Positions 20,154 to 24,519 of a stretch of 64,000 bases of DNA are shown here, piece after piece. The notes under the pieces were generated by a model. That model ran no database searches. It was not told where the DNA came from and saw only the letters and a program-made list of their open reading frames with translations. Location: the NCBI GenBank assembly GCA_022822065.1, contig JAJECI010000011.1:1-64000 (forward strand). The letters are read 5' to 3'. Within the stretch, counting starts at the first letter, position 1, and every line of letters starts with the position of its first letter. Position numbers and translations under genes: made by a program. The DNA comes from Candidatus Dadabacteria bacterium (GTDB lineage: Bacteria > Desulfobacterota_D > UBA1144 > Nemesobacterales > Nemesobacteraceae).

Positions 20154-22685
20154 TCACTCGATGTCGTCCGGGGTTTTTTCGATATTCGTTTTTATTACCC
20201 GAAGGAAATTCATTCCCATTATTTTCTCCACAACCCTCCTCGGATACCCTTTGCCGAGAAGATACTCGGAGAGTGCGGGAAGCTTTGATATATGTCTCAT
20301 CTCCTCGGGGAAATCCTTTAGGGGGGCTCCGTCCATGTCGGTTCCCACTCCCACGTGATCTTCGCCACAGATGTTTATGATGTGATCTATATGGGCGTAG
20401 ATGTCTTCAAGGGTGGCCAGACCATTTCCTTGCCTTAGGAATTTTCCGTAGAAAACGACCCCGGTCACTCCGCCTCTTTCGGAAATTGCGCGAAGCTGCT
20501 CGTCACGCAGGTTTCTTGGATGATCAACAAGCGCTCTTGAATTCGAGTGGGTCGCCACGGGTATGAGTTCGGTGAGCTCCACGCTTTCCCAGAAACATTT
20601 CTCGTTCAGGTGGGAGAGATCAAGGGTAATACCCAGAGCGTTCATCTGCCGGAGAAGCTCTTTTCCCTTCTCGGAGAGCCCTTCTTTGCTCTCGGGTCCG
20701 GAAGCGTAGATGTTCCTGTTGTTCCAGGAGAGTCCGACCGCCCGGACGCCCCTTTTTTGGTATTCAAGAAGATGTTCCGGGTTCAAGACGGGGTCCGCTC
20801 CTTCCATGAGGGTGAAAAACCCGATTTTCTCTTCCTCATGAAGTCTGTCTATGTCCCGTCTGTTTCTTATCTGAAAAACGCTTTCTGAGTGTTCTCTGTA
20901 TATGTCGTCGTATACGTCAAGCTGGGCCATGGCTTCGGTTACTGAACCCTCGGGTTTATGCTTTGGGTGAATGAAGATGGTGTTGAAAACGACCCTTGCT
21001 CCGCTCTGCCTTAGTCCCGGCAGTGTTATCATGCAGGGAACCTCGGGATTCTCAAAATCCCTTTTGTAGTGGCGCACGTGAAAGGCTATGTCCTGGTGGG
21101 CGTCGATAGTGAAAAAATTGGCCGGATCGGGCACTCCCCATCCTCCCCCTCCCGGAGTCTCGATCCTTACAGCTTCTCCGCCCTTTACCGCGATAGAGCA
21201 TTTCGCGGGCAGCTTTTTCTCTTCCCCACCCGACACAAGCGTGTTCTTACCGCTCGCTCCGTCTTCTCCGCCCCGGGCTCCCCAAGGCCGCCTTTCCCTT
21301 CTTTCGGTTATGAGGGAGACATGTGAGTCCTCAAGGAACCTGTACTGCCTTGTGATTCCGTCCCCGCCCGGGAACCTGCCCGCGCCTCCTGATCCCTTTC
21401 TTACGGAGTATGACTCCACCATTACGGGGAGCTCCCTCTCGATTGCCTCAACGGGGGTGTTGAGCGTGTTTGTCATGTGCGTGTGCACCGAGTTTGCTCC
21501 TCCCGCGCCCGACCTCCCTCCCATTCCTCCGGCTATCGTTTCGTAGTAGGCGTAGGAGGCATCGGAAGGCGCGTCTTGCGGCGAACCGAACGCGAGGTTG
21601 CTCATCGTTCCCGCGCTTGCCGCCTGTATCGTTTCGGGTATTGCCTCCGCGAGCGCTCCGAACACCACGTCAACTATCCTCTGGGACGTCTCGACGTTTC
21701 CGCCGACGACCGCGCTCGGGTACTTGGCGTTAAGAATCGAGTCCTCGTCGACTCTGATTTCAATGGGCCTGAGCGTCCCCGAGTTAAGAGGCGTGTCTTC
21801 GCCCGAGAGGCACTGAAAACAGTACAGAACCGCGGAGGTCGTTACGCTCAGGGGAGCGTTAAGACATCCTTTTACCTTCTTTGAACTCCCCCTGAAATCC
21901 ACGGTCGCTGAGTTTCCGTCTATTTTTATTCTTGCCTTTATCGGTATGTCCCTTGTTCCCGCTCCGTCGTCTTCAAGATAGTCGGTAAAGACGTAATCCC
22001 CGTCCGGTATTTTCTCTATGGCTTTTCTAACGAGCCTCTCCCCGTAGTCAAGAAGCCCGGAAGCCGCATGGTTTATTTTCTCGAGGGAATACTTTTCCAG
22101 AAGCTCCCGCATCCTTTTTTCCCCGGTGTCAAGCGCGGCTATCTGCGCCCGAAGATCCCCCTCTCTTTCCTCATGATCCCTGGTTGAGCGAATTATCTCC
22201 TGGAGCAGGGCTTCACGCAGCACTCCTTCTTCCCGTATCCTCGTCGGGGATATTATGATCCCCTCTTCGTGTATCGTCGTCGAAAGCGGCAGGGACCCCG
22301 GAGTGTCGCCTCCTATGTCCGCGTGGTGGGCGCGCGAGGCGAGCAGGAACTCGGGTTTCCCGTCAATGAACACTGGAGCGACGCAGGTTACATCCGGAAG
22401 ATGCGTTCCGCCGCGGAAAGGGTCGTTAAGGATGAAGACATCTCCCTGGGACAGGTTTTCCGTCGCTACCGACCTCGCGGCAAACGACATTGACCCGAGG
22501 TGTATGGGGATGTGGGCCGCCTGCGCGATCATATCTCCGTCCGAGTTGAATATGGCGCAGGAGAGGTCCCTTCTTTCCTTTATGTTGGGAGAGAATCCCG
22601 CTCTTACGAGGACAGAACCCATTTCCTCGGCGATTGTTCCGAGGAGATTGTTGAAGATCTCGAGTTCGAAAAGTTTTAGCTCCAT
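20154..22685 (-). CDS. Fusion: HyuB-type hydantoinase/oxoprolinase + M19 membrane dipeptidase
   Basis: A single 843-residue frame joins two enzymes. Residues 1 to about 520 are a complete hydantoinase B/5-oxoprolinase subunit (FNNLLGTIAEEMG, HIPIHLGSM, LNDPFRGGTHLPD, and the family-typical end ETPGGGGWG). Then, after only a few linker residues, a complete M19 (renal-type) dipeptidase runs to the end. It has the first zinc motif as DAHQD, then LMEG, ATHSNSRAL and HVGVGTDMDG. No start codon lies near the dipeptidase N-terminus, which argues for a true fusion. The ATG at 22685 fits HyuB homologues; the frame open upstream overlaps sucD. No hyuA gene is adjacent. TATTAT lies 8 nt before the ATG with no ribosome-binding site. 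Confidence 0.88.
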   Translation of the reverse strand: MELKLFELEIFNNLLGTIAEEMGSVLVRAGFSPNIKERRDLSCAIFNSDGDMIAQAAHIPIHLGSMSFAARSVATENLSQGDVFILNDPFRGGTHLPDVTCVAPVFIDGKPEFLLASRAHHADIGGDTPGSLPLSTTIHEEGIIISPTRIREEGVLREALLQEIIRSTRDHEEREGDLRAQIAALDTGEKRMRELLEKYSLEKINHAASGLLDYGERLVRKAIEKIPDGDYVFTDYLEDDGAGTRDIPIKARIKIDGNSATVDFRGSSKKVKGCLNAPLSVTTSAVLYCFQCLSGEDTPLNSGTLRPIEIRVDEDSILNAKYPSAVVGGNVETSQRIVDVVFGALAEAIPETIQAASAGTMSNLAFGSPQDAPSDASYAYYETIAGGMGGRSGAGGANSVHTHMTNTLNTPVEAIERELPVMVESYSVRKGSGGAGRFPGGDGITRQYRFLEDSHVSLITERRERRPWGARGGEDGASGKNTLVSGGEEKKLPAKCSIAVKGGEAVRIETPGGGGWGVPDPANFFTIDAHQDIAFHVRHYKRDFENPEVPCMITLPGLRQSGARVVFNTIFIHPKHKPEGSVTEAMAQLDVYDDIYREHSESVFQIRNRRDIDRLHEEEKIGFFTLMEGADPVLNPEHLLEYQKRGVRAVGLSWNNRNIYASGPESKEGLSEKGKELLRQMNALGITLDLSHLNEKCFWESVELTELIPVATHSNSRALVDHPRNLRDEQLRAISERGGVTGVVFYGKFLRQGNGLATLEDIYAHIDHIINICGEDHVGVGTDMDGAPLKDFPEEMRHISKLPALSEYLLGKGYPRRVVEKIMGMNFLRVIKTNIEKTPDDIE

Positions 22686-22761: not shown

Positions 22762-23631
22762 TTACGAGATCGCGCTTTTGAGCGCTTCTCCCATCTCGGC
22801 CGGGCTCTTGCAGGTGGTGACTCCGGCGCGCTCAAGCGCCTGGAACTTGTCTTCGGCGCTTCCCGAACTCCCGGAAATTATGGCTCCCGCGTGACCCATT
22901 CTTTTTCCCTTGGGCGCCGTGGCTCCCGCGATGAACGCGGCTATGGGCTTCGTGAAGCTCTGGCTTATGTATTCCGCCGCCTCTTCTTCGTCGGAACCCC
23001 CGATTTCCCCTATCATTACCACCGCGTCTGTGTCCGGGTCGTTCTCAAAGAGGGAGAGGGCGTCAATGAACGTGGTTCCGATAACGGGGTCGCCGCCTAT
23101 GCCCATGCAGGTCGACTGTCCTATGCCGAGGTTGGTAAGCTGCCAGACAGCCTCGTAGGTAAGGGTTCCGCTTCTTGAGATTATCCCCACTCTTCCGGGT
23201 TTATGAATGTAGCCCGGCATTATTCCCACCTTGGCTTCTCCGGGGGTTATAACACCCGGGCAGTTGGGCCCCACGAGCCTTGAGTCAGAGCCTCTCATGG
23301 ACTCCTTTACCCTTACAACGTCGAGGGTGGGTATTCCCTCGGTTATGCAGATTACAAGCTCAACTCCAGAATCAAGCGCCTCAAGCATCGAATCCATCGC
23401 GAACGCCGCAGGAACGAACACCAGGGACACGTTCGCCCCGGTTTCCCGCACCGCTTCGTCCATGGTGTCGAAAACCGGAAATCCCTCTACGCTGCTACCG
23501 CCTTTTCCCGGAGTGACACCGCCGACGACGTCGGTTCCGTACTCCCGGCACTGGGTCGCGTGGAAAAGCCCGGCACTTCCCGTTATCCCCTGCACGAGGA
23601 CTTTTGAGTCTTTATTTACGAGGATGCTTAT
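22762..23631 (-). CDS. sucD: Succinate--CoA ligase alpha subunit, probable ATA start
   Basis: The alpha subunit binds CoA and carries the phosphohistidine in the TCA-cycle step between succinyl-CoA and succinate. Key motifs are [30 protein letters not shown] and GHAGAIISG, the last with the phosphorylated His. The first usual start (GTG, 23595) would remove the first Rossmann strand. Reading back 12 codons gives [12 protein letters not shown], which aligns with the E. coli N-terminus MSILIDKNTKVI. The first residue is then an ATA codon at 23629-23631, with AAGGGAGA about 9 nt upstream and an in-frame stop further up. From ATA the protein is 289 residues, the same as E. coli SucD. No sucC is adjacent. 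Confidence 0.9.
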
Positions 23632-23907: not shown

Positions 23908-24519
23908 ATGAAAAAACCACAGCCTAGGATAGGCAAAATTATACGGATATATAAAATCAGCTTCCCGGACGGGTCAGCTTACGTAGGGCAGACAAAACGA
24001 CCGGTCTCCTACCGACTCGGGCAACATCGGTGGTCGAATCCATGCAACTGGATTTTATACCGCAAGCTTCTGATAATGGAGCCGACTGTGGAAGTTCTCT
24101 CGCGTCACCGCAAGCAGGAGATTGCGGACCGGGAAGAGAAAAAACAGATCATGCGGCTTGAAAAACCTATAAACAGATACGTTGAGGGGAGGCAGATCAA
24201 CACGAACCCCGAGGCGCCGCCGTTGCGCAACAACAGGTGGTCAAAAAAAAGAAACCGGCGGGAGAGGCGCAAATATCCTCGTAAAGCCAGCGGCCATCAC
24301 GTTTGTTCCTGGTGTTGGCGAAAACTTCCCGTGTCGGAATTCTATTCCGACCGCTGCAGGTCGGTAGGCCTTTCAAGCCGGTGCAAGGAATGCAGCAGCA
24401 TCGAGAATAAAACCCGCAAGCAGGAGATAAAAAAAAAGACGGTGACCCTTCTGCTGCTTATTTGCGGACGAAGCTTGAGCGTCAGGCGCTCCGGAAAACG
24501 AAGGTCAGACCGGTGGTAA
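23908..24519 (+). CDS. GIY-YIG nuclease-like protein with C-terminal zinc finger; possible -1 frameshift
   Basis: The N-terminal region (residues about 10-75) matches a GIY-YIG nuclease core: IYKISFPDG, then AYVGQTKRP, then YRLGQH with the family Arg. A basic linker follows, then a Cys-rich segment VCSWCWRKLP...RCKEC (about 130-160) typical of phage and mobile nuclease fingers. The frame ends in a strange tail after a run of nine A. At 24432-24438 there is a slippery A AAA AAG in the correct phase. A -1 shift there replaces the tail with 32 codons starting DGDPSAAYLRTKLER and ending at 24536, which look more natural. The gene may be mobile-element derived. There are no flanking repeats. Confidence 0.68.
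   Translation: MKKPQPRIGKIIRIYKISFPDGSAYVGQTKRPVSYRLGQHRWSNPCNWILYRKLLIMEPTVEVLSRHRKQEIADREEKKQIMRLEKPINRYVEGRQINTNPEAPPLRNNRWSKKRNRRERRKYPRKASGHHVCSWCWRKLPVSEFYSDRCRSVGLSSRCKECSSIENKTRKQEIKKKTVTLLLLICGRSLSVRRSGKRRSDRW
24432..24438 (+). other. Candidate -1 ribosomal frameshift site A AAA AAG
   Basis: The heptamer is in the phase required for tandem -1 slippage. A Shine-Dalgarno-like AGGAG lies just upstream (24422-24426). A GAGCG/CGCTC hairpin lies about 40 nt downstream, near 24476-24490. Alternatively the A-run is a real indel or a sequencing error. Confidence 0.4.

Follow-up and report, generated by a model that had tools for sequence, protein, structure and literature searches.

In one genus of Candidatus Dadabacteria, the HyuB subunit of an ATP-dependent lactamase family and an M19 dipeptidase are encoded by a single uninterrupted gene, and an intact HyuA partner subunit is encoded in trans, elsewhere in the genome on a separate contig. 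The gene lies in a window of 64,000 nucleotides, the whole stretch of DNA that was analysed, from a Candidatus Dadabacteria-like assembly of 1.63 Mb, and the in-frame fusion proposed in an earlier sequence-only reading is borne out in frame, coordinates and domains (Table 1). Together with HyuA, the fused protein probably represents a HyuA-dependent lactamase subunit carrying a tethered dipeptidase, with a role in salvage. Gene fusions usually link proteins that act together, and the arrangement thus hints at a pathway shared by a HyuA-HyuB lactamase and an M19 dipeptidase in Dadabacteria, which are known from genome sequences alone.

Table 1. Features of the fused gene and its upstream neighbour, in window coordinates.
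Feature	Position	Strand	Remarks
Fused HyuB-M19 gene	20154..22685	-	843 aa; ATG at 22685, stop at 20156-20154; from translation
HyuB half, aa 1-515	21141..22685	-	PF02538; putative metal-site subunit of an ATP-dependent lactamase
In-frame GTG, residue 518	21132..21134	-	Possible internal start for M19; unconserved
Linker, about aa 516-523 (WGVPDPAN)	21117..21140	-	Differs among species; from the junction alignment
M19 dipeptidase half, aa 524-843	20157..21116	-	PF01244, motifs and Foldseek
sucD (succinate-CoA ligase alpha)	22762..23631	-	Upstream neighbour conserved class-wide; Pfam and synteny

Pfam places the HyuB domain at residues 6-519 (profile positions 3-519 of 519, 663 bits) and the M19 domain at residues 524-832 (profile positions 6-318 of 319, 278 bits), both above the curated cut-offs, and finds no third domain in the protein. 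Only about eight residues separate the two, in agreement with the linker of a few residues described earlier; in this species the stretch spanning it lies around TPGGGGWGVPDPANFFTIDAHQD, and no signal peptide is visible at the N-terminus of the fusion. An AlphaFold2 model built from a 44-row alignment has a mean pLDDT of 89 and shows both domains complete and connected by a short loop, while its pTM of 0.64 means that it does not set their relative orientation. Foldseek matches the first half to N-methylhydantoinase, the caprolactamase subunit CapB and acetone/acetophenone carboxylases, and the second half to M19 dipeptidases, with target-normalised TM scores of 0.92-0.93 to Lmo2462 (3lu2/3neh).

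That both halves look catalytically complete, as had been claimed from the letters, holds at the level of ligands, which are invariant in all 13 species carrying the fusion. The zinc ligands and substrate arginine of the M19 half are H530, D532, E628, H692, H713 and R724, which we take to match the H-x-D, Glu, His, His and Arg residues of DPEP1. The metal ligands of the HyuB half, located by alignment to CapB (6yra_B) and NMHase (7hk5), are D40, H95, D98 and H120, and the Asp-His-Asp-His metal site of CapB consists of D41, H99, D102 and H124 (PMC8453981). At the level of equivalog models, the HyuB half scores 243 bits against a cut-off of 1000 for caprolactamase subunit beta (NF050157), and HyuA scores 461 bits against a cut-off of 1000 for CapA in NCBIfam; since no NCBIfam equivalog model reaches its cut-off for either protein, the sequence does not fix the lactam substrate.

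Twelve further species of the genus, in separate assemblies, also have an uninterrupted frame of 841-843 residues at 83-92% identity, and the fusion is therefore not an assembly artefact; the agreement of 13 independently assembled species rules out the assembly error or chimeric frame that had been raised as a concern. The fused state is present in every one of the 13 species that have the locus, without a re-split gene or a conserved internal start. Across these species purifying selection on both halves is strong (median dN/dS 0.088 for HyuB and 0.095 for M19), and the linker alone is loose, with a mean identity of 57% and a dN/dS of about 0.5 as against about 0.09 in both domains. The sole genus member without a match to the fusion is G007, where sucD was not detected either, in a search run without a positive control; the locus is thus probably absent from that assembly, and a true loss of the fusion is disfavoured. 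The earlier statement that no start codon lies near the dipeptidase is nearly right: a GTG does occur at residue 518 in this species, behind a chance Shine-Dalgarno-like stretch (GGAGGGGGAGG), but it is shared by only two other species (3 of 13), and in one species (G005) neither ATG, GTG nor TTG occurs within the stretch reaching from 40 codons ahead of the first residue of the M19 DAHQD motif to 8 codons beyond it. Translation of M19 by itself is accordingly not conserved, and an internal start was rejected, as the GTG is unconserved and the Shine-Dalgarno-like stretch is the coding sequence of the conserved PGGGGWG motif.

The neighbourhood from which the gene arose is older than the fusion. 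Throughout the class, HyuB and M19 are neighbours behind sucD, often with a gene of the Memo family in between. In the sister genus (G014), sucD is followed by separate HyuB and M19 genes in the same order, 80 bp apart. Separate genes in a related genome, which the sequence-only reading had regarded as speaking against a fusion, thus exist in the sister genus; they represent the ancestral state and leave the fusion standing in its 13 species. A marine relative (G046) likewise has sucD, HyuB and M19, the last two slightly overlapping, and in the other marine relatives examined (L160-L165) HyuB is gone and M19 lies immediately behind sucD, so that the neighbourhood predates the divergence of the marine family from the other members of the class. 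Marine M19 frames of 616-638 residues were considered as a second fusion, perhaps with sucD, and rejected, the frames being separate ones of about 315 and 288 residues. In the tree, the HyuB halves of the fusions group together in a single clade (support 100/100), as do their M19 halves (95/100), which points to a later, single event. The fusion is thus young and of single origin, the HyuB stop and the M19 start having been lost only in this genus. A search of 387 genomes, about 330 of them outside the class, returned both domains in a single match in this genus and nowhere else. Among 75 further HyuB loci (L038-L112), M19 occurs in the fetched flanks of one, itself from Dadabacteria, and HyuA in the flanks of 44, some of the loci being short.

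Several features of the surrounding DNA were observed in passing. Among the other members of the order that were examined, most have the Memo-family gene (PF01875) between HyuB and M19 (L128, 10662-11888; also L127, L130, L134, L037 and L143), and its product carries an extra N-terminal region that is weakly PqqD-like; it was not found in the sister genus or in the five genomes of the fused genus that were searched. The apparent start of sucD is ATA (window 23629-23631, minus strand), at the same position in L145, L146, L148-L152, L154, L155 and L009. Wherever the start is readable in genus members (11 of 11), this ATA is the apparent start codon, as against ATG in the sister genus and in others; a canonical start in frame first follows about 12 codons further in, and there is a TGA upstream. 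A central metabolic gene thus appears, as read from the sequence, to have a conserved non-canonical start codon. Between yicC and sucD there is a frame of 203 residues (23908-24519, plus strand) without a Pfam match, and its N-terminus (IYKISFPDGSAYVGQTKR) presumably resembles the GIY-YIG nuclease motif, a likeness noticed by eye.

The earlier reading described the fusion as lacking HyuA, which is correct for the neighbourhood but not for the genome: a loss of HyuA is rejected, as a single intact copy encoding 648 residues lies on a different contig (C10:9088-11034), between genes that, from their translations, we take to be Nudix-like and PhoD-like. It retains the motifs DAGGTFTD at residue 7, DMGGTSTD at 274 and GADPGP at 336; the DxGGTxTD, second DxGGT and PGP motifs are described for CapA (PMC8453981). 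Of 14 genus members, 13 yielded a HyuA gene; it is unlinked from HyuB in every compared HyuA-bearing genome of the order; split HyuA and HyuB loci are the rule across the class. A HyuB without an adjoining HyuA therefore need not be an orphan, since this class encodes both subunits apart. Across the class, both subunits occur in 35 genomes, neither in 15 and just one of them in 8 (Fisher p 2e-7, uncorrected for phylogeny), a co-occurrence dominated by one family-level loss, that of the marine family (not significant in the order alone, p 0.15). The six HyuB-positive assemblies without a HyuA match probably reflect gaps in fragmented genomes. On the simplest reading, HyuA and HyuB would constitute an ordinary two-subunit enzyme encoded at two loci.

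We propose that the ancestor of this genus lost the HyuB stop and the M19 start, merging two long-standing neighbours, and that the HyuB half would pair with HyuA made from its distant locus. According to the model for caprolactamase, a cyclic amide is first activated by HyuA at the expense of ATP, and its ring is opened at the metal site of HyuB (PMC8453981); here, HyuA would phosphorylate a cyclic amide, most likely 5-oxoproline, whose ring the zinc site of HyuB would then open. The M19 half would independently cleave dipeptides, for example Cys-Gly or others derived from glutathione or the cell wall. 5-Oxoproline is our best guess for the lactam substrate, because it arises spontaneously in all cells (PMC13274462), PxpA is absent, and glutathione synthase (GshB) and gamma-glutamyltransferase (GGT) are present in the genome above the curated cut-offs. 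None of 18 genomes had a PxpA, with a control that matched in 5, which leaves HyuA-HyuB as the sole 5-oxoprolinase candidate found. The link to GGT is imperfect: one relative (G018) has HyuA, HyuB and M19 without GGT, and another (G019; loci L133 and L167), a single-contig genome, has HyuA and HyuB with neither GGT nor M19. For the dipeptidase, known M19 family members include Cys-Gly dipeptidases such as GliJ, according to PDB titles, as well as L-D dipeptidases. Salvage of glutathione or short peptides, close to the breakdown of glutathione-derived products suggested earlier, thus remains in keeping with the gene content and would use both halves, as parallel branches joining at free amino acids. 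The channelled pathway suggested with it is not supported, since each half persists in some relatives that lack the other, which makes strict channelling unlikely: marine relatives retain M19 although HyuA and HyuB are gone, and HyuA and HyuB occur without M19 in two relatives. As M19 stays behind sucD in the marine genomes, it has a function there in its own right. Conservatively viewed, the fusion would mainly lock co-expression and tether the dipeptidase to the lactamase complex, rather than form an obligate channelling enzyme.

Other explanations of the fused gene can be weighed against this one. The fusion may simply be neutral, a stop codon having disappeared between neighbouring genes of a small genome and the join being tolerated because HyuB ends in a free C-terminus, with the two halves acting on unrelated substrates; we consider this rather unlikely, although several observations fit it. 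The two genes already adjoined each other, with 80 bp between them in the sister genus and an overlap in G046; the linker is short and under weak constraint, each half occurs without the other in some relatives, and CapB likewise has a C-terminal extension at the same position (PMC8453981). Against it stands the persistence of the fused state in all 13 species with the locus, none of which has re-split the gene or conserved an internal start. That the HyuB half has become a mere scaffold or dimerisation module for M19, its lactamase role gone, is highly improbable: HyuA is indeed not encoded alongside, but the four metal ligands are invariant, the dN/dS of the HyuB half is as low as that given above, and an intact HyuA is carried by nearly all genus members.

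A connection between the halves closer than the one we propose would exist if the substrates were cyclic dipeptides, with HyuA and the HyuB half opening diketopiperazines at the expense of ATP and the M19 half cleaving the product in a consecutive step. No other simple scheme would let one half hand its product to the other as a substrate, a two-enzyme route of a cyclo(Gly-Leu) hydrolase followed by a dipeptidase has been reported (PMC3852281), and relatives of HyuA-HyuB accept diverse cyclic amides (PMC8453981). However, the enzyme of the first step in the cyclo(Gly-Leu) route is called unknown in the same report (PMC3852281), none of the HyuA-HyuB enzymes tested in the literature examined showed diketopiperazine activity, and the relatives that keep M19 without HyuA-HyuB, or the reverse, speak against such a series, as does the finding that M19 adjoining HyuB was not seen outside the class. 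We therefore regard cyclic dipeptides as an unlikely substrate, and a tethered two-step machine, in which the ATP-consuming opening of the ring would be followed at once by cleavage of the linear dipeptide in the M19 half, as improbable; if true, it would be a genetically identified route of diketopiperazine breakdown. The lactamase subunit with a tethered dipeptidase acting in salvage thus remains the preferred reading.

The fusion consists of known domains in a new arrangement, found in one genus only as far as the searched collections show, and the literature covered, which lies outside subscription journals, yielded no paper that describes it or that links a dipeptidase or diketopiperazines to HyuB or oxoprolinase. 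Like the ATP-dependent lactamases CapAB, N-methylhydantoinase and eukaryotic 5-oxoprolinase, the first half has a full HyuB fold with a D-H-D-H site, and as in the CapAB family its HyuA partner carries both phosphate motifs; unlike in that family, where HyuA is adjacent or fused, the partner gene is unlinked here, and unlike CapB, the HyuB half bears an M19 dipeptidase at its C-terminus and scores below the CapB equivalog cut-off. The second half resembles the M19 membrane and renal dipeptidases Lmo2462, Sco3058, GliJ and DPEP1 in its full domain, zinc ligands and substrate Arg motif, but differs from them in having no conserved start of its own and in forming the C-terminal half of a fusion without a visible signal peptide. 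Gene fusion is itself known in this enzyme family from the eukaryotic-type 5-oxoprolinase of about 1250-1290 residues; there, however, HyuA is fused to HyuB, whereas in these Dadabacteria HyuA stands apart and HyuB has another enzyme as its fusion partner.
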